Source of the DNA: Hymenobacter sp. 15J16-1T3B
GTDB lineage: Bacteria > Bacteroidota > Bacteroidia > Cytophagales > Hymenobacteraceae
Assembly: GCF_020711235.1 (NCBI RefSeq)
Contig: NZ_JAJFAV010000008.1
Span: forward strand, 124,001-188,000
DNA length: 64,000 nt
Direction of reading: 5' to 3'
The position numbers and the translations under genes are program-made. The first letter of the stretch is position 1. Each line of letters begins with the position of its first letter. This document shows positions 1 through 13,960 of the stretch, in pieces. The notes under the pieces were generated by a model that did no database searches, had not been told where the DNA came from, and worked only from the letters and a program-made list of their open reading frames with translations.

Positions 1-2561
1 TTGAAGCGGATGTCGCCGGGGGCGGCGCCGGTCTGAGTGGCGTGGCTGCGCACGTCCTCAGGCGTCTGGAAGAGGCCGTCGGCCACGTAGCCGCGGAAGA
101 AGCCGAAGGGGTGGCCTTTGTCGTAGCGCACCACCGCGCCGCTGCGGTACGTCTGCCCGTCGTAGGGCAGGCCCGAGCCCAGCGAGGTCAGCTCGTTTTT
201 AAAGGTCGAGAAGTTCAGCGTGGTCGACCAGGTAAAGTCGCCCTTGGCCACGTTGTGGGTGGTCAGGGCCAGGTCCAGGCCGCGGTTGTAGGCCGAGGCC
301 GCGTTGGTGGGCGGCGACTCGTAGGTGCCCGACACCAGGGACGGCGGCACGCCCGCAATCAGGTTCGGCGACTTGCGGTTGTACACGTCGATAAAGGCCT
401 CGACGCGGTTTTCCCACAGGCCCAGGTCCAGGCCCACGTTGAGCTGCTGGTTTTTCTCCCACTTCAGGTAGGGGTTGGGCAGGATGGTCGGGCCCGAGCC
501 CTGGTTGACCACCTGACCCTGGTCGCCGAAGGGGTAAATCAGCCCCGGGTTGATGGTGGCCAGCGAGGCAAACTGGCCGGCGTTGGCCGGGTTGCCTACT
601 ACGCCGTAGCCGGCGCGCAGCTTCAGGTTGCTGATGAGGCGGTTTTCCTGCAGGAAGCCCTCCTCCGAGATACGCCAGCCCGCCGACACGCCCGGGAACA
701 AGCCAAACCGCTCCCCTTTCTTAAAGGCCGACGAGCCGTCGTAGCGGACCGTGGCAGAGAGGATGTACTTGCCGGCAAACTCGTAGTTGAGGCGGCCGAA
801 GTACGAGGCCAGCGAGGTTTCTTTGCTGGTGCCGTAGTTGTAAAGTTGGTCGTTGCGCGGGCCGGCGTCCAGTTCCTGCAGGTCGGGGCGCACGTAGCCG
901 CCGCGGCCGCCGCCCACGTTGTAGCTGTTGAACTGCTGGCCCGACTGGCCCAGCAGCAGCGTCAGCTGGTGCTTGTCGGCGAAGAGGCGGTCGTAGGTGG
1001 CCGTGTTTTCGATGAGGAAGCTCGGCGAGTAGGTCGAACCGGAGTTGGCCGTGCGCAGCGCGTACTTCGGAATGTCGGGCAGGCCCGGGCGGAAGTAGCG
1101 GTTGTAGTCGAAAATCAGGTCCACGCCCACGTTGGTGCGGAAGCGCAGTCCTTTGACCGGCTCCACCTCGGCGTAGAAGGTGTTGAGCACCCGGTTGCGG
1201 GTGAACTTCTTCTTGTCGAGCAGGGCTTCGATGAGCGGGTTGGGCTCCGAGAAGCCGTCGGCCACCGGGTCGGGCATGTTCCAGCTGCCGTCAGCCTTGT
1301 AAGGCTGCACCGTGGGCGGCATCTGCAGGGCCAGCGTCACGATGCCGTTGAACTCGTCGGTGGTGTTGACCTGCCGGTCGTTCAGGTTCGTGAGCGAGAG
1401 GCTGTTGCCGATGCGCAGCCACTTCTTGATGTCCAGGTCGCCGTTGGCGCGCAACGTGAAGCGCTCAAAGTGCGAGCCGACCACCGTGCCGTCCTGCTTG
1501 TAGTAGCTGCCCGACACGGCGAAGCGCGCTTTGTCGCTGCCGCCGGTGGCCGAGAGGGAGTAGTTCTGAATGGCCGCGCGGCGGAAAATCTGGTCCTGCC
1601 AGTTGGTGCCTTCGCCCAAGGACTGCGGGTCCTGCAGCTTGGGCAGCAGGGCCTGGCCGGCGGCAATGCGCCCTTCGTTGTTGATGACGGCGTACTCACG
1701 GGCGTTGAGCATGTCCAGCTTGCGCCACACCTGCTGCACGCCGCGGTAGGCGTCGAAGTTGATGCTGGCCTTGCCCGACTTGCCGCGCTTGGTGGTGATG
1801 ATGACCACCCCGTTGGCGGCGCGCACGCCGTAAATGGCCGTGGCCGAGGCGTCCTTGAGCACGTCGATGCTCTCGATGTCGTTCGGGCTGATGGCGTTCA
1901 GCTGGTTTTCATCGCCGGAGGGCAGCGGAAAGCCGTCGACCACGTACAGCGGCGCGTTGTAGCCGGCCGAGGTTACGCCGCGCACCCGCACCGAGGTGCC
2001 GCCCGCCCCGCCCGGGGCGCCCGAGTTTTGCGTCACCGTCACGCCGGCGGCGCGGCCCTGCAGGGCTTGCGTGGGGTCCGAAATGGGTTGTTGGCGGATT
2101 TCGGGGCCCGAAACCGAGGCCACCGAGCCCGTCACGCTGCTGCGTTGCTGGGTGCCGTAGCCCACCACCACTACTTCGCCGAGGGCCTGCAGGTCTTCCT
2201 GCAGCTTCACGTCGAGGCCGGAGGTAGCGCCCGTCACCGGGACTTCCTGCTTCACGAAACCCACCGCGCTAATAACCAGCGTGCTGTTCTCGGGCACGTT
2301 TAGCGAGAAGACACCTTCGGCGTTGGTGCTGGTGCCCAGCGTGGTGCCCTTCACAATAACCGTCACGCCCGGCATGGGCGCGCCGTTGGCCTGCGTCACG
2401 CGGCCCGAGACGGGCACGTCGGCCACGGCGGCGCGAAGCCGGGGGGCAGCCGCGGCGCCCGGAGCGGCGGCCAGTGCGGGACCGGCTAGCGTCAGCAGGC
2501 CGCTGGCTGCTAGGGGCACCGCCCGCCGCAGGAAGGAATGCGGGTAAAAGTGGTAGCTCAT
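1..2561 (-). CDS. SusC/RagA-family TonB-linked outer membrane receptor (3' end outside window)
   Basis: Imports oligosaccharides across the outer membrane using TonB energy, normally with a SusD lipoprotein lid. The frame opens at ATG 2561 and stays open to base 1, so at least 853 residues are present and the C-terminal barrel strands are missing. Visible in order: a signal peptide (residues 1-32), a CarboxypepD_reg-like domain (VSGRVTQANG, about 50-130), the SusC TonB-box region (GEVVVVGYGTQ), and a plug domain with the family hallmarks LQGRAAGV, VRVRGV, DASATAIYG and GVVIITTKRG. The barrel follows. It has its own promoter at 2875-2906, set apart from the upstream sensor gene by a terminator. 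The neighbouring GH5 and GH16 enzymes suggest a beta-glucan substrate, which is inference. The matching SusD should lie beyond the left edge. Confidence 0.95.
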   Translation of the reverse strand, partial: MSYHFYPHSFLRRAVPLAASGLLTLAGPALAAAPGAAAAPRLRAAVADVPVSGRVTQANGAPMPGVTVIVKGTTLGTSTNAEGVFSLNVPENSTLVISAVGFVKQEVPVTGATSGLDVKLQEDLQALGEVVVVGYGTQQRSSVTGSVASVSGPEIRQQPISDPTQALQGRAAGVTVTQNSGAPGGAGGTSVRVRGVTSAGYNAPLYVVDGFPLPSGDENQLNAISPNDIESIDVLKDASATAIYGVRAANGVVIITTKRGKSGKASINFDAYRGVQQVWRKLDMLNAREYAVINNEGRIAAGQALLPKLQDPQSLGEGTNWQDQIFRRAAIQNYSLSATGGSDKARFAVSGSYYKQDGTVVGSHFERFTLRANGDLDIKKWLRIGNSLSLTNLNDRQVNTTDEFNGIVTLALQMPPTVQPYKADGSWNMPDPVADGFSEPNPLIEALLDKKKFTRNRVLNTFYAEVEPVKGLRFRTNVGVDLIFDYNRYFRPGLPDIPKYALRTANSGSTYSPSFLIENTATYDRLFADKHQLTLLLGQSGQQFNSYNVGGGRGGYVRPDLQELDAGPRNDQLYNYGTSKETSLASYFGRLNYEFAGKYILSATVRYDGSSAFKKGERFGLFPGVSAGWRISEEGFLQENRLISNLKLRAGYGVVGNPANAGQFASLATINPGLIYPFGDQGQVVNQGSGPTILPNPYLKWEKNQQLNVGLDLGLWENRVEAFIDVYNRKSPNLIAGVPPSLVSGTYESPPTNAASAYNRGLDLALTTHNVAKGDFTWSTTLNFSTFKNELTSLGSGLPYDGQTYRSGAVVRYDKGHPFGFFRGYVADGLFQTPEDVRSHATQTGAAPGDIRF

Positions 2562-2874
2562 GTGGGAATGGATGTGGTTGAGTGAGGTGTCTTTCGGCAA
2601 TCGGCGCCAGACCGCAGCGGGCTACGGCAAGGCAAAGGAGCAGCCGGGCTCCGAACGGCAACGGTCCGGAACGGGCGGGGAGCAGCAAGGGAACACGGCC
2701 CTAGTGCGAACAGGCTAGGAGCGCAGCGGGCGCCTACCTAATTAGCCGGGGCAGGCACGCACCGGGGGTGCGGGAGTGGCGCCCCGGGGCCGCCGAGCGA
2801 ACGGCAAGTCCGACGAGCAGAGGCCAAGGCAGCGGGGCTAAGCAGCGCGGGGTTGGCAGCGGGTTGAGAATGGC

Positions 2875-2906
2875 CAAATATACCGGCGTTGTTTCTGAAA
2901 AATCAA
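2875..2906 (-). promoter_or_regulatory. Bacteroidota-type promoter of the SusC gene
   Basis: Read on the minus strand, TTG (2906-2904) is followed after 21 bases by TATATTTG (2882-2875), matching the Bacteroidota -33/-7 consensus TTTG / TAnnTTTG. Transcription would start near 2868, giving a leader of about 300 bases before ATG 2561. No further gene is seen in 2562-2874. Confidence 0.65.
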
Positions 2907-2945
2907 GCCCCAAAAATGCGCTAACGGGCCAGAAACAAGGATTTT

Positions 2946-2977
2946 CGCTTACATCGCACAATCAACTGTACGCTTAC
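2946..2977. promoter_or_regulatory. CGCTTAC boxes upstream of SusC promoter
   Basis: Two copies of CGCTTAC lie 25 bases apart (2946-2952 and 2971-2977). The second sits in the 9-mer TGTACGCTT (2967-2975), which is also found upstream of the two GH16 genes (12060-12068 and 39079-39087). The boxes lie about 75-110 bases upstream of the predicted start of transcription, a position that would suit an activator. The binding protein is unknown. Confidence 0.45.
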
Positions 2978-3010
2978 GGCACCCTCTTTTTTCGCTAATA
3001 ATAGGGCTAC

Positions 3011-3024
3011 TGCAATCGTTTGCA
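3011..3024. promoter_or_regulatory. LacI-type operator (imperfect palindrome)
   Basis: TGCAATCGTTTGCA is a 14-bp palindrome with a central CG and one mismatched pair, typical of LacI/GalR-family sites. It lies about 145 bases upstream of the predicted SusC start site. It matches the perfect palindrome TGCAAACGTTTGCA at 12123-12136, upstream of the GH16 gene, at nearly the same distance from that promoter. Confidence 0.55.
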
Positions 3025-3062
3025 ACATTCTCCCCGAACGGCACTGACGGGTAAAAAACACC

Positions 3063-3094
3063 AAAAAAAGTGGGCGGTTAGCCCATCTTTTTTT
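3063..3094 (-). terminator. Intrinsic terminator of the 7TMR-DISM gene
   Basis: On the minus strand GATGGGC and GCCCAC form a hairpin flanked by A and T runs. The TAA stop codon of the sensor gene (3078-3080) lies in the loop. The A/T runs on both sides could let it work in either direction. Confidence 0.75.
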
Positions 3095-5153
3095 CACTAG
3101 TTTTTGCTTTACCAGCCCAAGTCTCCACTTTCCGGCTTAGCCCCGGAGTCATGGTGGCTTCCTCCTCCCCTATTTCGTCCGTCTCGGCGGCCGTATCGTC
3201 GAGCAAGAGGTCGGTCCAGCTGTCGTCTTCAGTGGCTTCGCCGGCCTGGCGGCGCATGGCGTCGAGCACTTTTTGGCTGAAACTCCAGCAGGTAGCACGG
3301 CGCAAATCGAGCACGCGCGAGAGTTCCTGAGCCGAGTAGCTGCCCTTGTGAGTGTGCAGCAGAAACACGGCATAAAAGGCTTTGGTAATGGGGAACTTGC
3401 ACTTCTGCAGCAGGGTGTAGGCCGTAGCCGATTCTACGTAGCGGCAGCGGGTGCAGCGGCGGGAGTGCGGCTCGCGGCCCTCGCAGTAGTTGTCGTGGCT
3501 GCACTTGCGGCAGCGGTAGCCCTGGGCCCATTTCAGGTCGGCCAGGTAGCTCAGGCAGGCTTCCTTGTCGGGGTAGATCTGGCTGAACTCGCCGAAATCC
3601 ACTTCCTGGGCCAGCACCCGGGCGGCCTGGGCCTTCTGCAGGTCGCGCTGCAGGTCGCCGTTGAGCTTCTCGATGGCGGCCGATTGCAGGGCCAACAGGC
3701 CGTTGGCCTGCAGCAGCTCACGGTTCTGGGCGGCAATGGTTTCGCCCTGCTGGCGCAGCTCCTCGGTGCGCTGGGCCACGAGGTTTTCCAACTCCGTATT
3801 GAGCTGGTCTTTAAGCTCATCGTTCTGCCGCAGCTGCTCTACCAGCTGCTCCTGCACCTCGTGCTTTTTGCGCAACTGCTTCACCAGACGTTGTTGGGCC
3901 CGCAGCGTTGCGTCCTGAATACCCTTGATTTTCTCGCCCAAGGCGTAGGACAAAATCACCACTTCCAGCACAAACGCGGCGTTCATGCTGTACACGGTGA
4001 AGGTGTTGGTGAAGGTGTCGATGCCGAGCTTGCGCAGGATGAGGAAGCCGACGCTGACCACTACCAGCGTGTGAGACAGTAGGAAAAACCGCGCCGGCCG
4101 GAAGCCCCCGCGCCACACCCGCATGGCGGCCACGAACAGCATGCCGTAGGGCAACAAGTACAGCCAAAAGCTCAGGTCCGACTGCCACCAGAGCGCGTCG
4201 AGCAGCAGGGCAGCCGCGCTGAGCAGCACCACGTTGCGCACCCAGGGGTCGTAGTGCGGCAGGCGCTGCGGGGCGTCGAGGAAGTGGCGGGCGTAGTAGC
4301 TGAAGGTGAGCAGCAGCAGGGGCGCCGAGCTGATGATGACCAGCTGGTTGAACCAGGGGTGGTCGGGCCAGAGGTACTGAAACCCCAGGCCGTCTTCGGA
4401 GAGGAACACGAGGCTGCAGCTAAGCACGTAAAGCACGTAGCGCAGGTAGGTTTGCTCGTGGGTGAAGAAGTACAGGCATAGGTTGTACACCACCATGATG
4501 AGCAAGATGCCGTAGAAGCCGCCCAGCAGGCCGTATTCCTGCTGAAAACGCTCCACCAAGCCCTGCTCGGTGCGCAGGCGGGCGAGGAAGCTGGTCTTGG
4601 AATTGGCCTGCAGGCGCAGGTAATAGGTCTGCGTCTCGTTGGCGCGCAGGGGCAGGCGCAGCAGGAAGTTCTTGTAGCCGTAGGGGCGCGAGAGAAACGA
4701 GCGGTCGGCGCCGGTGTGCACGGCGCTGGCCGGGTCGGCCGGATCGGGAAAAAACACCACCTCGCTCAGGTGGGAGTCGTAGAGCTCCAGGTACCAGTGC
4801 TGGGGCAGCGGGCCGCGGGCCTGCACCGTCAGGCGCAGCCAGTAGGCCGCGCCGGTGTGCTGCATGTTGGTGGAAATGGAGGAACCGGCCACGAAGCGGG
4901 CGGCATTCACGCCCAGTTGCACGTCGGTCAGCGTCATGCGGCCGCTGGGGTCTTCGAGCACGCTGTAGTTGGGCGGCAGTATCAGGACTTCCTCCTGCCG
5001 GGCACTGACGCTCAACGGCTTTTCCGGACCGGGCGGCGCCGTGGCCGTGGCCTGGGCCCAGAGCAGGCAGCACAACACGGCGCCTACCCAGCGCCAGGAG
5101 CCAGAACAGGCCGAACGAAAGAACGTGTTGGTAATGGCGAAAGTGGGGCGCAT
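3078..5153 (-). CDS. 7TMR-DISM membrane sensor fused to an IS1595-type zinc-ribbon domain
   Basis: Membrane receptor of 691 residues. Visible in order: signal/anchor segment (about 20-40), an extracytoplasmic 7TMR-DISMED2-like beta domain (about 55-195, with YWLRL), seven hydrophobic helices (about 205-405, starting GLLGGFYGILL), a long coiled coil (about 410-515), and a domain at 519-636 resembling the N-terminal zinc ribbon of IS1595/ISXO2 transposases. The paired cysteines are CRKC (548, 551) and CTRC (567, 570), followed by a helical stretch like the family's (KFPITKAFYAVFLL). An acidic tail ends the protein. Known DISM receptors bind carbohydrate-like ligands and usually end in kinase, cyclase or phosphatase domains; none is present. 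I infer that the zinc ribbon binds DNA or a partner, coupling extracellular sugar to nearby promoters. The DDE transposase core is absent and the frame is intact, so this is not a broken insertion sequence. Confidence 0.85.
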   Translation of the reverse strand: MRPTFAITNTFFRSACSGSWRWVGAVLCCLLWAQATATAPPGPEKPLSVSARQEEVLILPPNYSVLEDPSGRMTLTDVQLGVNAARFVAGSSISTNMQHTGAAYWLRLTVQARGPLPQHWYLELYDSHLSEVVFFPDPADPASAVHTGADRSFLSRPYGYKNFLLRLPLRANETQTYYLRLQANSKTSFLARLRTEQGLVERFQQEYGLLGGFYGILLIMVVYNLCLYFFTHEQTYLRYVLYVLSCSLVFLSEDGLGFQYLWPDHPWFNQLVIISSAPLLLLTFSYYARHFLDAPQRLPHYDPWVRNVVLLSAAALLLDALWWQSDLSFWLYLLPYGMLFVAAMRVWRGGFRPARFFLLSHTLVVVSVGFLILRKLGIDTFTNTFTVYSMNAAFVLEVVILSYALGEKIKGIQDATLRAQQRLVKQLRKKHEVQEQLVEQLRQNDELKDQLNTELENLVAQRTEELRQQGETIAAQNRELLQANGLLALQSAAIEKLNGDLQRDLQKAQAARVLAQEVDFGEFSQIYPDKEACLSYLADLKWAQGYRCRKCSHDNYCEGREPHSRRCTRCRYVESATAYTLLQKCKFPITKAFYAVFLLHTHKGSYSAQELSRVLDLRRATCWSFSQKVLDAMRRQAGEATEDDSWTDLLLDDTAAETDEIGEEEATMTPGLSRKVETWAGKAKTSEKKMG

Positions 5154-5269: not shown

Positions 5270-5309
5270 TATCCAATGGATAAGCAGAGCGGTGTATGCT
5301 TCAAAAGTA
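5270..5309 (-). promoter_or_regulatory. Candidate promoter and palindrome before the DISM sensor gene
   Basis: On the minus strand TACTTTTG (5309-5302) fits the -7 consensus TAnnTTTG, but no clear TTG lies at -33. Just downstream of the predicted start is a perfect 13-bp palindrome, TATCCA-A-TGGATA (5270-5282), well placed for an operator. The rest of 5154-5371 shows no gene. Confidence 0.4.
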
Positions 5310-5371: not shown

Positions 5372-7273
5372 TTACTGCCCGCCTTGCGTAGCGGCTTTGG
5401 TGTCGGTGAAGCGCAGCCAGCCGAGTACCGCCCCGGGCTGCTCTACCAGCAGCCGCAGCGTGTGCGTGCCCGCCGGCAGGGTCGCGGTGCCCCCGCTGAC
5501 GGTCTGCCAACCAGCGTCTTCGGAGGCGGCGGACGCCACGGTGAACGTGCCGAGCGCGGAGTCGTTTAGCGTCAGCCGCAGCCGGGCCGGAACCGCGCCG
5601 GCGTTGGTGGCGCGCAGCTGCAGGGCGTAGGTCCCGGCTTTGGGCACCGTCACGGTGTAGTTGAGCCATTCACCGGCCTCGGTGTGGCCCACGCCGAAGC
5701 CGGTGCCGCCCGCATCCGAAATGGCTTGCACGTCCACGCCGTCGTTGCGGTAAGCGTTGCCGCTGTTGGTGGGCTTCAACTCCCGGTAGTCGGTGCGGGC
5801 GTTGTAGGTGTCGTGGTAGGCCACGCCCTCGCGGCCCAGGTCGTAGTCGGCGGCCCGGATGGTGCCGGGCAGCGAGTGGGCGGCAAAGGGCTGTCGGGCC
5901 GCGGCGGGCTGGGTCAGGGCAAAAACGACGTCGCGGTTTACCGCACAGTTGGCGAATTGGGCGTTGCGCAGCAGCACCTCCCGGCCGGCGGCCGTCAGGA
6001 TGCTGCCGTAGGGCTTCACCCGCAGCAGGCTGCTGCCGGCATCCACGCGCTTGAGGTTCCAGTGGCACCACCCGATGCCTTGGCCGTTGAGCTGCTGCAC
6101 GGCGGCGGCAAACCACTCGTTGGAATTTTCGCCCGTCTCCCCCACCCACACCGGCACCTGCCACCGGTCCCGAAACGCCACCAGGTTTTTCACCAGATTG
6201 ATTTGGTTCGGGTTGGGGTCGAGGGCCGCCGCGTCGTTGGGGCACCAGTAGCGGTGGGCGTTGTACACAAGGCCGGTGTTGTCTTTGACCTTCAGCTTGT
6301 CCGGGGTCAGGTTGGTGTACTCGTTGCCGTAGCCGTTGCCTTCCAGCAGCAGCAAGTGCCGGTCTTGCTGCGCCCGCACCGCGTCAATCAGCCGGCTGTA
6401 AAGTGCGGTTAGCTCCTGATTGTCGGCCGAGAGGCCGTGCTGGGGGTTGAGGTTGTGCGGCTCGTTGAGCAGGTCGTACATGGCCACGCGCGGGTCGTTG
6501 CGGTAGCGCTTGGCCAGCTGCTCCCAGAGGCGCACGGTCATATCTTGATAAATCAGGCGCCCGCAGGCGTCGCGGCGCTTCCAGAGGTCGAGGGGGCGGA
6601 AATTGTCGTTGATGTTGGCGTCGGTGCCCTGACCGCCGGGGGCCGCGTGCAGATCGAGCACCACGTACATGTGGTTGGCCCCGCACCAGTCGAGCACCTG
6701 GTCGAGGTAGCGGAAGCCGTCGAGCGTTTGGGGGTCGGCGGTGAACAGTTCGTTTGCCTCGTACCAGCCGCTGAGCGCCCGCACGTAAGCGTGCACGGCA
6801 GCGTCGCTTTTCGGGTGTTGCAGGGCCGCGGTGCGGGCCCGGCGCTGCTTGGCCGTCAGAAACAGGTCGTAGTGAAACGGCAGGCGCACGCAGTTGAAGC
6901 CTTGCCGGGCCAGCCAGTCGATGTCGGCCTTGGTAACGAAGCCGGCGCGGAACTGGCGGTAAAACGCTTCCACGTCTTTTTCGGGCATCACCCGCAGCAG
7001 GCCCTGCTGAATGCGGCGCTGGCAACCCAAGGTGTCGGTTTTGAGGATGTAGCTTTCCTGCAAGAGCCAGCCGCCCACGTTGCAGCCGCGCAGCACCACC
7101 GGCCGGCGCTGCGCGTCAACCACTTGGGTGCCTTGGGCCGTGAGCCAGCTTAGCTGCTGGGCCGCCGCCGGGCGCAGCAGGCCCAACAGCATTATCAGCA
7201 GGGCCAGGGTGCCGGCGCGCAGCCGGCGGGGCACGAGAAAACGAGGGGTAACAGGCGGGGTAAGCTGATTCAT
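5372..7273 (-). CDS. GH5 beta-glucanase with C-terminal CBM6-like domain
   Basis: Secreted glycoside hydrolase of 633 residues. A signal peptide (1-39, hydrophobic LALLIMLLGLL, ending AAAQ) supports the start at 7273; an in-frame ATG at 7348 would add 25 residues without improving it. The GH5 barrel spans about 45-460. RGCNVGGWL is the family's N-terminal signature, the acid/base Glu is E271 in LLNEP, and the nucleophile is E379 in VWVGETGE. A CBM6-like beta-sandwich follows at about 490-628 (GEWLNYTV). No T9SS sorting domain is seen. It lies 84 bases after the GH16 gene and is probably cotranscribed with it. The substrate is probably a beta-1,3 or mixed-linkage glucan, inferred from the GH16 neighbour; the GH5 subfamily cannot be fixed by eye. 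Confidence 0.88.
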   Translation of the reverse strand: MNQLTPPVTPRFLVPRRLRAGTLALLIMLLGLLRPAAAQQLSWLTAQGTQVVDAQRRPVVLRGCNVGGWLLQESYILKTDTLGCQRRIQQGLLRVMPEKDVEAFYRQFRAGFVTKADIDWLARQGFNCVRLPFHYDLFLTAKQRRARTAALQHPKSDAAVHAYVRALSGWYEANELFTADPQTLDGFRYLDQVLDWCGANHMYVVLDLHAAPGGQGTDANINDNFRPLDLWKRRDACGRLIYQDMTVRLWEQLAKRYRNDPRVAMYDLLNEPHNLNPQHGLSADNQELTALYSRLIDAVRAQQDRHLLLLEGNGYGNEYTNLTPDKLKVKDNTGLVYNAHRYWCPNDAAALDPNPNQINLVKNLVAFRDRWQVPVWVGETGENSNEWFAAAVQQLNGQGIGWCHWNLKRVDAGSSLLRVKPYGSILTAAGREVLLRNAQFANCAVNRDVVFALTQPAAARQPFAAHSLPGTIRAADYDLGREGVAYHDTYNARTDYRELKPTNSGNAYRNDGVDVQAISDAGGTGFGVGHTEAGEWLNYTVTVPKAGTYALQLRATNAGAVPARLRLTLNDSALGTFTVASAASEDAGWQTVSGGTATLPAGTHTLRLLVEQPGAVLGWLRFTDTKAATQGGQ

Positions 7274-7357
7274 AGCCAAAGCCGGAAGCGCCCAAAAGCG
7301 AGAAACAGGGCAGGGAAGCCCCGCCCTGTTGCCCTCGCATTCACTCACTTCAATGGG

Positions 7358-10300
7358 TTATTCCTTGATGATTTTCTGGGTGTGCACGCCCGAGGCGCTG
7401 CGCACCGTGAGCTGGTACACGCCCGGGCGCAGCGGCTGCACGCTAAGCGTGGCCGCCGCCTGCTGCCCGGTGGTTTGCCGCGCGAGCACCACCCGGCCGA
7501 GGGCGTCGCTCAGCGTGACGGTGGCGGCTTCGGCGGCGGGCAGGGTCACCGTGAGCTGTTCGCCTACGGGGTTGGGGTAAGCCAGCGGCGCGGACGACGC
7601 CGCGGCCGTTTTGCTGGCCAGGGCGCCACGGCTGTTGGTGCACGTGCTGCCGGCGGTGTAGCTGTGCGGGGTGGCGCTGGAGTTACGCTCGGCCGTGGTC
7701 GTGCCCACGCGGTAGGTGAAGTAGAACGACAGCGCCGCGCCAGCGGCCTGCGCCTGGCTGAAGGTGAAGTTGCTGCCCGCCGCCGTCATGGCGTACCCCG
7801 CGTAGCCGCCGGTTCCGGTTTTAAGGTAAATCAGCGCCAGCGAGCTGCCGGCAATGGGTGCCAGCGGCACGAACTTCCAGTTTACCGTGCCGTTGGTGGT
7901 CGACACCTCGTAGCTGTAGTCGCCGTTGGCGGCGGTGCCGGTGCACGCGCTGCCACCCGGGGTGGTGCCGCCGGCCGCGGAGCCGTACACTTCCAGTTCG
8001 TAGAGCGAGTAGCCGTAAGCGGTGCCGCGGGCCGTGCCGTACATGCGCACGTAGCGGCCGGTGCCGCTCAGGCCGGTGTGGTCGTTGACGAGCGTAGCGT
8101 TGCCCGCGACGGTTTTGATGGTGGTCCAGGTGGCCGCATCAGCCGACACCTGCACCAGGTAATCCTTGCCGTAGGCGCCTTCCCAGGTCAGCTTCACCCG
8201 GCTCACGTTGTAGCTGGCGCCCAGGTCCACGTACAGCCACTGCGGGTCGGCAAAGGCGCTGCTCCAGCGGGTGCTCGTGGCGTTGCCGTCGACGGCGGCC
8301 GCGCCGGGCGTGCCCGCGTTTTCCGTCGACGAGGTGTAGGTGGGCTTGTTCAGGGCCAGGTTGGGAGCCGCAGCAGCCGTAAAGTTCAGCCAGTTGACGT
8401 TGCAGCCCGTCGAAGCCGAGGCGTAGAGCCGCAGCGTCTGGGCGCCCGCGGGCAGGGTCACGGTGGTGCCGATGGTTTGCCAGCTTTGCCAGCCGCCGGT
8501 GTTGCCCACGTTGATGCTGCCGAGCACCGCGCCGCCGCTGGTGCGCAGCTGCAGGGTAGCCCCGCCGTTGGCCGAGGCCACGCGGAGCTCCACCGCGTAC
8601 GGCCCGGCCGCGGCCACGTTCACGCTGTAGTCCAGCCAGTCGCCGGTTTCAAACCAGTCCACGTTCTGCCCGCCGCCGGTGTCGGTGGTCGTTTCCTTGT
8701 CCGTGCCCGACTGCGTACTAAAGCTTTCCGCCTCGATCTTGCCCGGAATGGCCTGGGCCGTGGGCGCCGCTACGCTCACGCTGACGGCCGCCGAGGTGGT
8801 GGCGGCGCCGGCGTTGTCGGTGGCTTTGGCCGTGAGGTTGTAGGTGCCCGCCGGTACGCCGGCCCACGTGTAGCTGTAGGGGCTGCTGGTAGCAGTGCCG
8901 AGCAGCGTGGTGCCGCTGAAGAACTCCACCTTGCTGATCGAGCCGTCGGCGTCGGCGGCGCTGGCGGCCAGGCTGATGCTGGCCGGCGCCGTGAACGAGG
9001 TGCCGCTGGCGGGCGAGGTCAGGCTGACGCTCGGGGCCGCGTTGGCCGCGCCGTTTTTGGTCAGGCTGCGCAGGTTGTCGAGGTAGAACGTGTAGTTCGT
9101 CAGCGAGTTGGGCGCGAAGAGAAACACCGAGTTGTCCACGTCGGAATCGGGCGTGCCGGGGTCGGGGGCGCTGGCGAAGGTGAAGATGAGGGTATGCCAG
9201 GCGTTGGTTTGCTTCACCACGGCCTGGTAGATGCTGTGGCGGCCGGTGGGGTAGTTCTGCGGGCGCGAGGCCGCGCTGCTCTCCAGCTGCCAGGAAACGA
9301 CGGTGCCGGCCGGAGCCGAGGTGTACACGTCCAGGGCAAACACCTTGTCGCCCTTTTTGTAGGCCGCGCCGTCCTTGGTCAGCAGGTTGCGGAAGGCCAG
9401 CACGTCGTACTGCTCGCTGGCGTTGCGGGTGTATTGCCCCACCTTGGCCGAGGTGTTGATGCCCGTGGCCGCGGGGTTGTTCACCACGGCTGCGTAGGCG
9501 CCGTTGGCGCTCAGCAAGGTCAGGTTGCGCGTCGCGTCGTAGTTCTCGAAGGTAGTACCGGCCGCGTAAGTCGGCGCGGCGGACCGCTTCACGATGCGGA
9601 TGTTGTCGACGTAGTAGGTGTCGCCGGTAAGGGAGTTGTTGCCAAACAGAAACGCCAGCTCGTCGATGGCCACGTTGGCCGTGCCGCCGTCGGGCGAAGT
9701 TACGTAATTGAAGGTCAGCGTCTGCCACTGGTTCTGCACCGTCGTGCGCGCCTCATAGGTGCTGTTGCGCCCGGCCGGGTAGGTATTAGCGGCGGCAGCT
9801 TTGTTCTGCAGGTTCAGCAGCACGGCGGTGCCCACCGGCGCGGCCGTGTACACATCGGCCTGGATCTGGTAGGTCTGGTTCTTAAACAGCGCCGCGTCCT
9901 CGACGATGGTGCCCGCGGGGCCGGCGTCGAAGAACAGCACGTCGTACTGCTCGGCCGGGTTGCGCACGTACTTGGCCACTTTGGCGGAAGTATTCACGCC
10001 GGTAGCCGCGGGGTTGGCGAAGTTGGCGGTGTAGGCCCCGTTGGTCTTGGCCGCGTTCTGCGTGATGCGGGCCGTGCCGTCGTAGTTGATCAGCACGTCG
10101 GTGCTCAGGATGGGCTGATCGGCCTGCTTTTTCACCAGCAGGTTGTCGAAGTAGAACGTGGCGCCGGAGCTGGTGGCGGGTTGAAACAGCAGCGTCACGT
10201 TGTCGATGCTGTAGATGCTGGTGCCCGCGTCGATGCTGCGCTCCAGGTCGAATTCCAGGGTTTCCCAGGCGTTTTGCCGGCTGGTGTAGGCCCGGTAAGC

Positions 10301-11746
10301 GCTGTGGCGGCCCAGCGGGAAGTTGGTAGCCGTCGTGACGGCGCTGTTTTCCAACTGCAGGGTCACCTTGCTGCCCACCGGCGCGGTGGAGTACACGTCG
10401 AGGTAGATTTTGCGCCGGCCCGCCACGAAGTCGTTGGCGTTGCCGATGGCCACGTTGCGCAGCGAAATCACGTCGTACTGCTCCGTGGTGTTGCGCACGT
10501 ACTTAGCGACTTTGGCCGAGGTATTTTGCCCCCCGCTCACCGGGTTGGCCAGGGCTTGGGTGAGCGTACCAGTAGCCGAGGCGTAGGTCACGAAGCGGTT
10601 GGCCTCAAAATCCTCGTACAGCTTCTCCAGCTGCAGGGCCGGGCCGACGGTGACGCCTAGCGAGTACGTGCCCGTGGGGCAGCCGCTCACGGCGGTGCTC
10701 ACCGCCACGTTGCCGCCCGCCGACGAGCCCCAGTTCACCTGAATGGCGTTGGTGCCCTGCCCGGCGGTGATGGTGGCGCCGACTGGCACCGACCAAGTAT
10801 AAGTGGCCCCGGTCACCGCGTCGAGGCGGTAGGTTTTACCCGTATCGTTCTGGTACACCGACTCGTCGCCGAGCACGGCGTAGTTGTACGTGCCTTTGTA
10901 GACGCGCACGAAATCCACCTGCATGGTGGTCGGGTAGTCGGCCGGATTGGGGTTGGTGTACCCCGTAAAGCCGGTGCCAGGGCCGCCCACCGCGGCGTTG
11001 AGCATCAGGTAGAAGTTGCCGTCGTTAAAGGGCCAGGCGCCGCCCGAGGTGGTTTTGGGCGAGGCCGTGTGGTAGAGCGTGTTGTCGATAAACCACTTAA
11101 TCTGGTTGGGGCTCCACTCCACCGCGTAGGTGTGAAACCCGGTGCTCAAGTCCACCGTGCCCGCGTACTCGCGGCCGGTAAAGTGCCAGCCGTTGTCGTC
11201 GTAGTGAATAGTGCCGGCGACGGAGGTTGGGTTTTTGTGCTTGGCCTCTATAATGTCGATTTCGCCGGTGCTGGGCCAGTTGCCGGGGTCGGGCAGCATC
11301 CAGAACGCAGGCCACACGCCCTGCCCCGAGGGCAGCTTGATGCTGGCTTCGATGCGGCCGTACTTGAAGGTTTGCAGGGCGCCGGCGGCCGTTTTGGAAA
11401 ACAGCTTGGCCGAGGAGTAGCTGTAGTTGCGCCCGCCCACGGTGCTCGGCTCGTAGCGGGTGGTGATGGTGAGGTAGCCCCCGGCCACGGCGGCGTTGGC
11501 CGCACGGTAGGCCTGCAGCTCGGCGTTGCCGAAGTTGCAGTTGCCCTCGGCGCAGCCGTCGCCCTCGTACACGCGCCATTTGCTCAGGTCGCCGGCGGTG
11601 GTGAATTCGTCCTGCCAGACCAGCTGATTGCACTGAGCCTGAGCCAGAGTGGGGCTGAGCACGGCGAGGCCCGCACCAGCAGCCAGCCCGTAGGCGCTGC
11701 GGCGGAGCCACTGCCTGGCGCGGCCGGAAAGTAGAGGTGTTGTCAT
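7358..11746 (-). CDS. Modular GH16 beta-glucanase (laminarinase-like), T9SS cargo
   Basis: Very large secreted enzyme of 1,462 residues from ATG 11746; an upstream ATG at 11779 would add 11 residues before the signal peptide. Modules in order: signal peptide (1-38), GH16 domain (about 40-285) with the catalytic motif GEIDIIE (E162, D164, E167), a PKD-like linker (290-370), three tandem copies of a roughly 170-residue beta-rich module (374-541, 554-722, 732-898), an Ig-like domain (905-992), CBM6 (1000-1125), an F5/8 type C domain (1128-1257), a CBM56-like module (1268-1370, with SFYFTYRVG and ERNSSA) and a T9SS type A sorting domain (1385-1462, YPNPVGEQ to KIIKE). CBM56 binds beta-1,3-glucan, which favours laminarin-type substrates. 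Exported by type IX secretion and probably held at the cell surface. Confidence 0.93.
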   Translation of the reverse strand: MTTPLLSGRARQWLRRSAYGLAAGAGLAVLSPTLAQAQCNQLVWQDEFTTAGDLSKWRVYEGDGCAEGNCNFGNAELQAYRAANAAVAGGYLTITTRYEPSTVGGRNYSYSSAKLFSKTAAGALQTFKYGRIEASIKLPSGQGVWPAFWMLPDPGNWPSTGEIDIIEAKHKNPTSVAGTIHYDDNGWHFTGREYAGTVDLSTGFHTYAVEWSPNQIKWFIDNTLYHTASPKTTSGGAWPFNDGNFYLMLNAAVGGPGTGFTGYTNPNPADYPTTMQVDFVRVYKGTYNYAVLGDESVYQNDTGKTYRLDAVTGATYTWSVPVGATITAGQGTNAIQVNWGSSAGGNVAVSTAVSGCPTGTYSLGVTVGPALQLEKLYEDFEANRFVTYASATGTLTQALANPVSGGQNTSAKVAKYVRNTTEQYDVISLRNVAIGNANDFVAGRRKIYLDVYSTAPVGSKVTLQLENSAVTTATNFPLGRHSAYRAYTSRQNAWETLEFDLERSIDAGTSIYSIDNVTLLFQPATSSGATFYFDNLLVKKQADQPILSTDVLINYDGTARITQNAAKTNGAYTANFANPAATGVNTSAKVAKYVRNPAEQYDVLFFDAGPAGTIVEDAALFKNQTYQIQADVYTAAPVGTAVLLNLQNKAAAANTYPAGRNSTYEARTTVQNQWQTLTFNYVTSPDGGTANVAIDELAFLFGNNSLTGDTYYVDNIRIVKRSAAPTYAAGTTFENYDATRNLTLLSANGAYAAVVNNPAATGINTSAKVGQYTRNASEQYDVLAFRNLLTKDGAAYKKGDKVFALDVYTSAPAGTVVSWQLESSAASRPQNYPTGRHSIYQAVVKQTNAWHTLIFTFASAPDPGTPDSDVDNSVFLFAPNSLTNYTFYLDNLRSLTKNGAANAAPSVSLTSPASGTSFTAPASISLAASAADADGSISKVEFFSGTTLLGTATSSPYSYTWAGVPAGTYNLTAKATDNAGAATTSAAVSVSVAAPTAQAIPGKIEAESFSTQSGTDKETTTDTGGGQNVDWFETGDWLDYSVNVAAAGPYAVELRVASANGGATLQLRTSGGAVLGSINVGNTGGWQSWQTIGTTVTLPAGAQTLRLYASASTGCNVNWLNFTAAAAPNLALNKPTYTSSTENAGTPGAAAVDGNATSTRWSSAFADPQWLYVDLGASYNVSRVKLTWEGAYGKDYLVQVSADAATWTTIKTVAGNATLVNDHTGLSGTGRYVRMYGTARGTAYGYSLYELEVYGSAAGGTTPGGSACTGTAANGDYSYEVSTTNGTVNWKFVPLAPIAGSSLALIYLKTGTGGYAGYAMTAAGSNFTFSQAQAAGAALSFYFTYRVGTTTAERNSSATPHSYTAGSTCTNSRGALASKTAAASSAPLAYPNPVGEQLTVTLPAAEAATVTLSDALGRVVLARQTTGQQAAATLSVQPLRPGVYQLTVRSASGVHTQKIIKE
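9053..10627 (-). repeat. Three tandem protein modules within the GH16 gene
   Basis: Codons for three homologous modules lie at about 10124-10627, 9581-10087 and 9053-9553. Each has the order NTSAKV, then Y-RN--EQYDV, then DVY(S/T)(S/A)AP-G, then a P-GR-S-Y segment, and ends FY-DN or YY-DN. They look like beta-sandwich carbohydrate-binding modules of the CBM4/9 sort, but I cannot assign them to a named family. Copies differ at many residues, so duplication is not recent. Confidence 0.8.
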
Positions 11747-11979
11747 ACTGGTTGTGGAGGTTGGGGAATGAGCAGGCATTAGCCGGCTGTCCGCCCCGCA
11801 AGCAGGGCAACAACCACGACCGGCGGGTGAAGCCGACCGGCCGCCGGCGCACCGCTAGCTTGGTAGCAGGCCGCACCGGCGTGGGACGAGAAGAGCAGGA
11901 AGGGCCCGAGCGCGGCCGTGTTGGGGAAGAGGCGAAGTGCGGTGACCGTTAAGGCTCACCCTCAGCGGCTCGGGTTGGT

Positions 11980-12010
11980 CAAAGCTAGGCGCGTTGTTAG
12001 GCAAAAGCAA
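11980..12010 (-). promoter_or_regulatory. Bacteroidota-type promoter of the GH16-GH5 unit
   Basis: On the minus strand TTG (12010-12008), a 20-base spacer and TAGCTTTG (11987-11980) fit the -33/-7 consensus. The start would be near 11973, giving a leader of about 225 bases (11747-11973) in which no gene is seen. Confidence 0.65.
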
Positions 12011-12049
12011 GCGCAAAATCCTGCATAAATAGCCAAAAACAGCGTTTTA

Positions 12050-12070
12050 CGCTTACGTGTGTACGCTTAA
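12050..12070. promoter_or_regulatory. CGCTTA(C/A) direct repeat upstream of GH16
   Basis: CGCTTAC (12050-12056) and CGCTTAA (12064-12070) repeat at 14-base spacing. The second lies in TGTACGCTT (12060-12068), the 9-mer shared with the SusC promoter and the second GH16 gene. It lies about 75-100 bases upstream of the predicted transcription start. Confidence 0.5.
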
Positions 12071-12122
12071 CGCACACGAGTTTGTCACGTATTTGCCGCT
12101 TGATGGCCCGCAAATCAGCCAC

Positions 12123-12136
12123 TGCAAACGTTTGCA
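12123..12136. promoter_or_regulatory. Perfect LacI-type operator
   Basis: TGCAAACGTTTGCA is a perfect 14-bp palindrome with the AACGTT core typical of LacI/GalR regulators. It lies about 150 bases upstream of the GH16 promoter start. The same site with one mismatched pair occurs upstream of SusC at 3011-3024. Two LacI regulators (36175 and 43614) are encoded in the window; which one binds is not known. Confidence 0.65.
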
Positions 12137-12154
12137 CAACGGATAACAAACAAT

Positions 12155-12217: not shown

Positions 12218-13789
12218 CTACTTGCCGGCCCTGGGCAACGGCGTCAGCTTGAGCAGCACGACGTCGTTGTCACGCAGCTCCACTTGCTCATGGACGGCCC
12301 CCTGACTGACCTGCACGGTTTTCTGCCAGAGCGGCTGGTCGGCGGTGGCCGCCGCTAGCGTGCTTACCTGTTGCCGCGTCAGTTCGGTTGGGCGCCCCAG
12401 CCGCAGGTAGGCCGAGTAGGCGTCGTTTTGGTCGTAGCCCACCTTGTAGGCTGCGCAGCGGTAAGCGCCGGGTGCCAGGTGGCTTATCAGCAGCTGCACC
12501 GTGCGCGGATTGCCGGCCGGGTGCTCCTGCCCGAAGTAGACCTGATCAGTGCTGCTGCCCAGGGCCGGGGGCGCGAAGTTCCAGCACAGCAGCTGCACGC
12601 CGCCCTGCGCGTCGCGGGTGGCCCAAGAGGCGGAATCGGCGTTGTGCAGCTCGGTGGTTCCGAGCTGGTGCAAGTACTTGTAGGCAAAATACGCCGGCTT
12701 GCGGATGCCCTGCAGATTCAGCAGCCCAAAGCCGCCGTGGAACGGCGTGGGGGCCGGCCCGGCCTCCTCAAAGATGTCGGTAAACGTCCAGTACGACATA
12801 CTGGTGGCCGCCCGCTCCGTCTGTTTGAGTGTGTTGAGCAGGTAAGCGGCGCTATGGTAGGAGTCGTGCACCGGGTCGCGCGAGGAGTACGAGGTGCTCC
12901 ACTCCGTGATGTGCAGCTCGGCCTGGGGCCGGGCCGAAGCCTCGATTTTGCGGCGCACGGCCTGCACGTTGCGCGCAATGCCGTTCGGGTCGCCGAGTTG
13001 CTGCTGGCCCTGCCCAAACTCGTCGAGGCCACCCTCCCGCACGCCGTAGTCGTGGGTGCTGACGAAATCCAGCGGCACTTGCTGGTGGGCGCAGTAGCTG
13101 AGCGTCTCGTCAATCCAACCCACGCCCGAGGAAGCCGGCCCGCCCACCCGGTACGTGGCCGACACGCGCTTGATGGCCCGGGCCGTGGCGGCGTACAGGC
13201 AGAAGTAATCGGCCTGGGTGCCGGAAAAGAAAGCGGGGTAATTCGGCTCGTTCCACACTTCAAAGTACCAGCTTTCCACCTCCCGCCGGCCGTAGCGCGC
13301 TTCCCAGTGCCGCACCAGCGCCTCCACCAGGGCTTCCCACTTGGCGTAGTCCTTGGGCGGCGACACATTGGCCCGCCACCAGAACACGGTTTTATCGGTG
13401 CTGCGCAGGGCGGCGGGCATGAACGATAGCTCCACGAAAGGCTTCACCCCGATGCTCAGCAGGTAGTCGTAGAGCTGATCGATGTACTGAAAGTTGTAGA
13501 CGGGGCGGCCGGCGCGGTCCTCCTGGTACACGCCCATGTCGTCGTGCAGCAGGCCGTGGAAGCGCAGGTACCGAAAGCCGCATTCCTGTTTGAGCCGGGC
13601 CAACTGCCGCTGCCAGTCGGCGCGCAGGCCTTCGTGGGCCCGGCCGGCCCCCACGCACAGCTCGAACGAGCGGCTCAACGGGCCTTTCGCCTGGCGGGCA
13701 TCGACGCGAATGACGCGGGGAGTGGGCTGCGCCCGCACAGCCAGGCCCAGCGGCCAGGCTGCCAATAACAAGGTGACAAGCAAACGCAT
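12218..13789 (-). CDS. GH39 beta-xylosidase
   Basis: Exported glycosidase of 523 residues, expected to release xylose from xylo-oligosaccharides. A signal peptide (1-20, ending VRAQ) is followed by a GH39 barrel. The acid/base residue is E181 in EVWNEPN and the nucleophile E296 in HITEWS; YLRFHGLL near 74-81 is also family-typical. A beta-sandwich fills the C-terminal 130 residues. Length agrees with GH39 enzymes. It is the last gene of the xylan run, 171 bases after GH115 and just before a strong terminator. GH39 also contains iduronidases, but the context points to xylosidase. Confidence 0.88.
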   Translation of the reverse strand: MRLLVTLLLAAWPLGLAVRAQPTPRVIRVDARQAKGPLSRSFELCVGAGRAHEGLRADWQRQLARLKQECGFRYLRFHGLLHDDMGVYQEDRAGRPVYNFQYIDQLYDYLLSIGVKPFVELSFMPAALRSTDKTVFWWRANVSPPKDYAKWEALVEALVRHWEARYGRREVESWYFEVWNEPNYPAFFSGTQADYFCLYAATARAIKRVSATYRVGGPASSGVGWIDETLSYCAHQQVPLDFVSTHDYGVREGGLDEFGQGQQQLGDPNGIARNVQAVRRKIEASARPQAELHITEWSTSYSSRDPVHDSYHSAAYLLNTLKQTERAATSMSYWTFTDIFEEAGPAPTPFHGGFGLLNLQGIRKPAYFAYKYLHQLGTTELHNADSASWATRDAQGGVQLLCWNFAPPALGSSTDQVYFGQEHPAGNPRTVQLLISHLAPGAYRCAAYKVGYDQNDAYSAYLRLGRPTELTRQQVSTLAAATADQPLWQKTVQVSQGAVHEQVELRDNDVVLLKLTPLPRAGK

Positions 13790-13960
13790 GGGGCAGCCGT
13801 TGAAAATCAGAAGTAACCATGACCGGTAGCCAATTAGCCCAACGCGTAGGTAGAAGTCGGTACTTTTTGGGCGTGCCTGCTACTGGGCAGCAAGCATTTT
13901 TTGCGGCCCTCTTCGCCCCACCCACGTGAAGTGCTTACCGCTCAACTGCGCGGGCAGCTA

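Follow-up and report, generated by a model that had tools for sequence, protein, structure and literature searches.

The 64,000-nucleotide stretch of the Hymenobacter sp. 15J16-1T3B genome analysed here (contig NZ_JAJFAV010000008.1, positions 124,001 to 188,000; hereafter the window) encodes, at positions 3078-5153 of the reverse strand, a membrane receptor of the 7TMR-DISM type fused to a zinc ribbon and helix-turn-helix (HTH) of the kind found in IS1595 transposases. The gene lies in a polysaccharide utilization locus (PUL), between a glycoside hydrolase (GH) gene unit, GH16-GH5, and the gene of a SusC-like transporter. We consider it quite probable that this sensor activates transcription of a beta-glucan utilization locus as a one-component regulator tethered to the membrane, and that it reads a tandem operator. 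A regulator of this kind, carrying a domain taken over from a transposase, had been suggested in the preliminary description of the stretch, and the present analysis supports that interpretation, in which we infer the binding of DNA, the ligand and the sign of regulation. Compared loci and genomes carry L and G numbers, respectively.

Domain organisation of the sensor

The gene and the parts of its product are as follows:
3078-5153, reverse strand: sensor-regulator gene, one open frame of 691 codons (691 amino acids), DISMED2, 7TM, coiled coil, zinc ribbon and HTH
4575-4970, reverse strand: 7TMR-DISMED2 periplasmic domain, putative glycan sensor, residues 62-193 (Pfam, E 1.3e-24)
3933-4535, reverse strand: 7TMR-DISM_7TM seven-helix domain, residues 207-407 (Pfam, E 3.4e-44)
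3609-4004, reverse strand: long helix from the last membrane helix into a predicted cytoplasmic coiled coil, AlphaFold2 model helices 384-487 and 491-515
3438-3569, reverse strand: IS1595-type zinc ribbon, residues 529-572, with C548, C551, C567 and C570
3240-3401, reverse strand: HTH of the IS1595 output domain, approximately residues 585-638 (NCBIfam match and AlphaFold2 helices)

Both receptor domains scored above their Pfam cut-offs (7TMR-DISM_7TM 151.6 bits, cut-off 29; DISMED2 87.1 bits, cut-off 22). Zn_ribbon_IS1595 matched residues 529-572 with E 4.2e-5; its score was 23.9 bits in hmmscan, just under the cut-off of 25.4, and 28.5 bits, over it, in the six-frame genome search. The frame, its coordinates and its domain order, and with them the fusion reported in the preliminary description, were confirmed, as were the two cysteine pairs that it had placed within residues 548-570, CRKC being C548/C551 and CTRC being C567/C570. 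The HTH behind the ribbon, which the preliminary description had missed, is an addition: NCBIfam transpos_IS1595 matched residues 585-644 (E 7.7e-9), a partial match whose 35.7 bits lie below the whole-protein cut-off of 75 and which covers profile positions 2-62 of 215. Since the match reaches position 62 of 215, the homology to transposases spans the HTH and stops before the DDE domain; the transposase part of the sensor thus consists of the zinc ribbon and the HTH, ending where the DDE catalytic domain would begin.

Searched with Pfam at E values up to 1, the protein contained nothing beyond the DISMED2, 7TM and zinc ribbon domains. There was no kinase, cyclase or phosphatase domain, as the preliminary description had stated, none of the HisKA, HATPase, receiver and AraC HTH domains of a hybrid two-component system (HTCS), and no DDE domain (PF12762), the catalytic domain of IS1595 transposases. 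Sigma-70 and anti-sigma domains were absent (Pfam) from the sensor and from the neighbour families scanned, which did not include the rarer neighbours. With sensor and DNA-binding domains in one chain and an operator footprint at its locus (see below), the protein would be a one-component regulator. It carries the only IS1595 zinc ribbon of its genome according to a genome profile search, and it is one of two DISM receptors encoded there. The other (L213:4733-7804, on G000:C7) is an HTCS with all its domains and a DISM sensor, in the order DISMED2-7TM-HisKA-HATPase-receiver-AraC.

An AlphaFold2 model of the full sensor, built from a 66-row alignment, had a mean predicted local distance difference test score (pLDDT) of 83.8 and a predicted template modelling score (pTM) of 0.62. 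The pLDDT fell below 50 at residues 476-505, within the long helix leading toward the output domain; the coiled coil is our reading of this modelled helix. Foldseek placed the RetS periplasmic sensor domain on top of the matches of the periplasmic domain (3jyb, E 1.2e-5; 2xbz, E 3.4e-5). In the HTH region the model has helices at 589-601, 608-615 and 619-638. A prediction of the output domain alone, which the preliminary description had proposed as a check, gave two ribbon strands and helices that read as an HTH (mean pLDDT 87.9, pTM 0.78).

Conservation of the fusion

Among 150 genomes of the family, the output-domain profile matched in 69, and in 64 of these, counted by hand from the profile-match table, the match lay inside a frame of at least 656 amino acids with no internal stop; the remaining five were short frames, transposases or fragments. 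Because the fusion is conserved in 64 of 150 genomes, a frameshift or sequencing error as its source, which the preliminary description had named as a possible refutation, is excluded. The fusion is not universal in the genus, being found in five of the eight same-genus genomes of the sample, own genome included; the ten family loci that come from named genomes are all from Hymenobacter.

The four zinc cysteines are kept without exception in the 33 close relatives, the 66 wider full-length relatives from many families and the 82 aligned domain sequences, transposases among them. The loss of the zinc ribbon in close homologues, which would have spoken against the preliminary description, was therefore not seen. 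The C-terminal W646 is invariant in the 33 close proteins and kept in at least 90% of the 66, and residues such as K82, R109, W114 and K119 (domain numbering) are common to fusions and transposases. Both DISM domains were recognised in 66/66 relatives and the zinc ribbon, at E up to 0.01, in 62/66. The output domain is the best-conserved part of the sensor, the zinc ribbon foremost: mean column agreement in the 33 proteins was 0.86 for the zinc ribbon, 0.83 for the HTH, 0.76 for the 7TM domain and 0.65 for DISMED2. Taken together, the alignments indicate a fusion that is old and constrained.

Candidate operator and promoters at the locus

The preliminary description had named the regions 2868-3030 and 11970-12140 as targets for DNA-binding tests. 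They share a positionally fixed element, and the genome has no third place where this element is combined with a promoter:
2969-2977, reverse strand: distal candidate operator box GTAAGCGTA, lying 95 bp before the SusC promoter's -7 box
2944-2952, reverse strand: proximal candidate operator box GTAAGCGAA, 70 bp upstream of the same -7 box
2875-2906, reverse strand: predicted promoter of the SusC operon, which we take to be of the Bacteroidota type, with TTG at 2904-2906 and TATATTTG at 2875-2882
12048-12070, reverse strand: candidate operator boxes of the GH16 promoter, TTAAGCGTA at 12062-12070 and GTAAGCGTA at 12048-12056, respectively 83 and 69 bp upstream of the -7 box
11980-12010, reverse strand: predicted promoter of the GH16-GH5 unit, TTGCTTT at 12004-12010 and TAGCTTTG at 11980-11987

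The proximal box is thus placed almost identically at the two promoters, 69 bp from the -7 box at GH16 and 70 bp at SusC, and the boxes stand 14 bp apart at GH16 and 25 bp apart at SusC, a difference of 11 bp or about one helical turn. In the whole genome, the pattern TAAGCGNA-N60-62-TANNTTTG matched twice, only at the SusC and GH16 promoters, and its reversed control did not match at all.

The candidate operator in relatives

The comparison covered 33 family neighbourhoods chosen from the matches of the 64 genomes, a contig-end fragment (L044) being left out. GTAAG[C/T]G recurs in them at a fixed place between the sensor and SusC (or GH3). The -7 box TANNTTTG was found in 31 of 32 intergenic regions (all except L071), and exactly 94 or 95 bp upstream of it 27 of the 31 promoters match GTAAGCG in at least six of seven positions; in shuffled upstream sequence the mean was 0.095 and the maximum 2. 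The four promoters lacking the box at this distance are those of L070, L080, L058 and L042. The next-best distance, 70 bp (9/31), is that of the proximal box, 25 bp closer, in the clade of the own genome.

Two box-and-promoter patterns gave 40 matches in the 33 loci, a promoter with both boxes counting twice. Of these, 34 stand directly before SusC, GH3, GH5 or GH16, and the other six precede short frames that are themselves followed by SusC or GH5; the controls, a reversed pattern and three permuted ones, gave 0, 0, 1 and 0 matches. Across the family, TAAGYGTA-N85-86-TANNTTTG matched in 59/150 genomes (reversed control, 13/150). Setting the two 150-genome tables side by side by hand, we found it in 43 of the 64 sensor-bearing genomes, in 39 of them just 3' of the sensor. 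Twelve genomes have a match about 3.7-8.3 kb upstream of the output-domain match, and in the three that were refetched (L251-L253) this match stands before GH5 or GH16. Six further matches in sensor-bearing genomes are unlinked to the sensor. Four were inspected (G025:C3 and G099:C2:3128529 were left out), and three of these lie before GH16 or SusC: two before GH16-CBM6 genes (1650 and 1674 amino acids) and one before SusC. The fourth (G031), and likewise a match in the sensor-less genome G087, had no labelled target gene, these two regions having been labelled with eight profiles and not with Pfam. The operator thus appears to follow the sensor across the genomes of the family and would predict its targets.

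The surrounding locus

The neighbouring genes in the window are:
1-2600, reverse strand: SusC-like TonB-dependent transporter, continuing outside the window (identified by Pfam through the L063 orthologue); its start, taken from the longest frame, could be about 40 bp further in
5372-7348, reverse strand: GH5 gene with CBM6/35, upstream of the sensor (Pfam)
7358-11779, reverse strand: GH16 gene with CBM6 and sorting tail, first of the GH16-GH5 unit (Pfam)

Beyond SusC, outside the window, follow SusD, a PKD-domain protein and GH16 (L082). The placement of the sensor between GH16-GH5 genes and SusC, as given in the preliminary description, was borne out by Pfam and by the neighbourhood comparison, whose counts ignore open reading frames under 130 or 180 amino acids. 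SusC lies at most three same-strand genes downstream of the sensor in 32 of the 33 family loci, immediately so in 25, and SusD is present in 32, the exception (L045) being an additional copy in its genome. As a rule the genes are arranged as GH16/GH5, sensor, (GH3), SusC, SusD, PKD-domain protein and GH16, with some loci lacking members. This composition suggests a beta-glucan substrate such as laminarin. Because the sensor gene stands behind GH5 in the GH16-GH5 run, positive feedback is possible; the 218-bp gap before it, which holds a TACTTTTG box at 5302-5309, would also allow it to be transcribed from a separate promoter.

Upstream of the GH16-GH5 unit, positions 12218-16600 of the window hold GH39 and GH115 genes (Pfam), possibly a second, xylan cluster; the genome-wide box-and-promoter pattern had no match before them.

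Fusions outside the family

Searches with the output-domain profile at the level of the order (341 genomes) and of the phylum (395 genomes) gave matches in at least 136 and in 42 genomes, respectively, part of the matches being plain transposases. From the matches listed, 60 neighbourhoods outside the family were picked non-randomly, and 56 of them hold a readable fusion. In 53 the partner is a DISM receptor. The other three (L139:5903-8893, L140:5506-8709 and L141:3874-6906) are Reg_prop/Y_Y_Y propeller sensors, which are typical of HTCSs; here they end in the IS1595 zinc ribbon and HTH instead of a kinase and AraC. The propeller fusion of L140 lies directly upstream of SusC-SusD. A third, minimal sensor type appears to be represented by L212:1099-2010, a protein of 303 amino acids with two hydrophobic stretches (by eye), a long middle part of helical appearance, the same output domain and no DDE domain.

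The preliminary description had suggested searching other Bacteroidota for the same domain order near SusC and GH genes. In addition to the 32 of 33 family loci, SusC occurs at most three same-strand genes downstream in 21 of the 56 outside fusions (immediately in 19), the propeller protein L140 included. For comparison, 21 DISM receptors without the output domain, from 12 genomes (the own genome and 11 of 15 others), were inspected over three genes before and four after, and none of the 21 had SusC. The difference gives a Fisher p of 0.0004, with the reservation that orthologous loci are not independent in such counts and statistics.

An operator-like element also occurs outside the family. 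AAG[C/T]GTAT was present in 7 of the 19 regions between sensor and SusC, against a mean of 0.5 and a maximum of 3 in shuffled sequence, and its density was 1.16 per kb in such regions vs 0.14 in 138 control regions. The intergenic regions of L182-L186 and L158 have CGTATCA or CGTATTA twice between sensor and SusC, an element that shares GCGTAT with the Hymenobacter operator.

Some other features of these loci deserve mention. Xylan genes are neighbours in L142 (GH67, the short-chain dehydrogenase/reductase family SDR, GH10) and in L172 (GH10 with SusC/SusD). In L142, L143, L147 and L164 (family f19), the fusion stands behind a gene run of similar sizes, which in L142 is GH67-SDR-GH10, pointing to a xylan or glucuronoxylan regulon; of the four, gene content was scanned in L142 only. 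Families f15 and f20 (L150, L151 and L179, for example) have many output-domain copies per genome, and G258 and G325 have 12 matches each among the matches listed. L245:6596-8173 is a DISM receptor with a GerE/LuxR-type HTH, another one-component layout.

Origin of the output domain

In a tree of 89 output domains (130 columns, midpoint-rooted for drawing), a single branch separates all 70 fusions from the 19 transposases, with support 98/94 at a bootstrap that was not fully settled. L211 and L212, first labelled transposases, are counted as fusions: L211 begins inside a DISM fusion at a contig end, and L212 is a membrane protein with the output domain and no DDE domain. The nearest sampled IS1595 transposase (L043) is 52% identical over 112 residues. 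As the fusions are separated from the transposases by one branch, the transposase DNA-binding module was apparently co-opted once. As to the order in which sensors were exchanged, the approximately unbiased test gave no rejection of a single DISM clade (p 0.227) or of a single propeller clade (p 0.28) among the fusions.

We also considered whether the operator is a relic of a transposon end. The operator profile, scanned over the 14 inverted-repeat ends of seven related IS1595 copies, gave shuffle p values of 0.06-0.85, none below 0.05, and such a relation is not supported.

Proposed mechanism and alternative explanations

From these results, the following mechanism may be proposed. The ligand of DISMED2 would be a glycan, probably a beta-glucan oligosaccharide set free by the GH16 and GH5 enzymes, and the seven helices and the coiled coil would pass the signal on and dimerise the protein. 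The IS1595-derived zinc ribbon and HTH, having no catalytic domain, would bind the tandem GTAAG[C/T]G(T/A)A boxes in front of the SusC-SusD operon and the GH16-GH5 unit, which stand about 70 and 83-95 bp before the respective -7 box. Both PUL promoters may in this way be switched on from the membrane by zinc-ribbon/HTH units acting as a dimer. We also think it likely, with a little less assurance, that the family represents a further class of PUL regulators: a module co-opted once in the Cytophagales lineage, then combined with three or more kinds of membrane sensor (DISM receptor, HTCS-type propeller and short membrane protein), and reading a tandem (T)AAG[C/T]GTAT-type operator before SusC and glycanase genes from a regulator that remains membrane-bound.

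Several observations weigh against these proposals. The output domain had no significant match among solved structures (best E 0.19 in the profile search, 0.86 in Foldseek); the top, non-significant rows were ribosomal and kinase zinc modules and various HTH proteins. L042, a relative with 46% identity, matches the box in only three of seven positions at the expected place. An operator match exists somewhere in 16 of the 86 sensor-less genomes, the exact pattern is missing beside the sensor in 25 of the 64 sensor-bearing ones, and the orthologous loci behind the operator counts are not independent. Outside the family, the likeness of AAG[C/T]GTAT was spotted by eye first and then counted, and the full operator profile reached p <0.05 in only 5 of 19 regions. 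In 35 of the 56 outside fusions no SusC follows within three same-strand genes downstream, and in the scanned loci L150, L151 and L179 the fusions sit among housekeeping or unrelated transport genes that have no link to glycans. Finally, the operator could belong to another regulator acting on this locus.

The exclusive use of the output domain in PULs is ruled out by L150, L151, L179 and the 35 fusions lacking SusC. The suggestion in the preliminary description of a new type of PUL sensor therefore holds as far as the adjacency to SusC in relatives is concerned, and not as a property confined to PULs.

The alternative that survives best, and that we regard as unlikely, is that the boxes are read by an unlinked regulator, for example of the CRP or AraC type, and that the fusion signals by protein contact, with the zinc ribbon as a docking module. 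Zinc ribbons can also mediate protein contacts, DNA binding by the fusion is deduced from its sequence, and the 25 genomes without the exact pattern by the sensor fit this explanation. However, the pattern tracks the sensor, the 43 of 64 genomes (39 at the sensor) contrasting with the 16 of 86 sensor-less ones, a frequency near that of the reversed control. Moreover, the zinc ribbon and the HTH are kept together, with residues such as the four named above common to transposases, and beyond SusC, SusD, PKD, GH16, GH5 and GH3 no family occurs in more than six of the 33 neighbourhoods, the rarer ones not all having been scanned for regulators.

Slightly less probable again is a repressor that holds both promoters off until the glycan is sensed, an explanation left room by the fact that activation is deduced indirectly. 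With distances of about 70 and 83-95 bp to the -7 box, the boxes lie upstream of the core promoter and outside it, and their spacings of 25 and 14 bp differ by 11 bp; such a geometry is expected of an upstream activator. In addition, SusR, for which tandem direct-repeat motifs are predicted, activates the sus operons according to PMC3878776. A recent or degenerate, functionless IS1595 insertion into a receptor gene is hardly credible: the domain is indeed homologous to IS1595 transposases, the nearest being that of L043, but intact fusions occur in 64 of the 150 family genomes and in several other families, the cysteines are invariant, the output domain is better conserved than the receptor, and one branch parts the fusions from the transposases.

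Comparison with known systems

If the activator proposed here is real, the regulons of many environmental Cytophagales would become predictable from sequence. PULs are the main glycan-harvesting systems of Bacteroidota. The sensor would also illustrate clearly how a transposase can be domesticated into a bacterial transcription factor, and would provide a phosphorylation-free switch from membrane to DNA within one gene, simple enough for bench work.

Three kinds of Bacteroidetes-specific PUL regulators, SusR-like, HTCS and extracytoplasmic function (ECF) sigma/anti-sigma, are proposed in PMC3878776, where direct-repeat motifs are reported for the SusR-like and HTCS regulators. As described there, SusR resembles the present sensor in being membrane-bound, sensing in the periplasm and having its DNA-binding part at a cytoplasmic C-terminus, and the tandem boxes before the sus genes here recall its predicted motifs, as a feature of how the system works only. 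The likeness is one of description. Unlike SusR, our protein has a DISM 7TM sensor with an IS1595 zinc ribbon and HTH, and its boxes are spaced by 14 or 25 bp, whereas 67 or 77 bp are given for SusR (PMC3878776).

HTCSs resemble the sensor in being PUL regulators, and their Reg_prop/Y_Y_Y sensor type is joined to the same IS1595 output domain in L139-L141; unlike them, the sensor has no HisKA, HATPase, receiver or AraC domain. IS1595-family transposases share the succession of zinc ribbon and HTH, but the sensor lacks DDE, and its domain is C-terminal, not N-terminal, and fused to a receptor. L245 (DISM with a GerE HTH) and L213 (a DISM-type HTCS) are likewise DISM receptors with a DNA-binding output; they differ in its type, LuxR or AraC, and have no SusC among the neighbours shown. 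A figure legend of PMC8092284 includes, among other architectures, a DISM receptor that carries an unusual DNA-binding domain at its C-terminus; that domain, the phylum and the context differ from those of the sensor. Among the matches listed in our literature search, we found neither an IS1595 output domain on DISM receptors or linked to SusC, nor its spread over several sensors, nor the operator. Proteins combining DISM with DNA binding and membrane-bound PUL regulators are already known, and what appears to be new is the IS1595-derived output domain, its spread over different sensors, and its operator.

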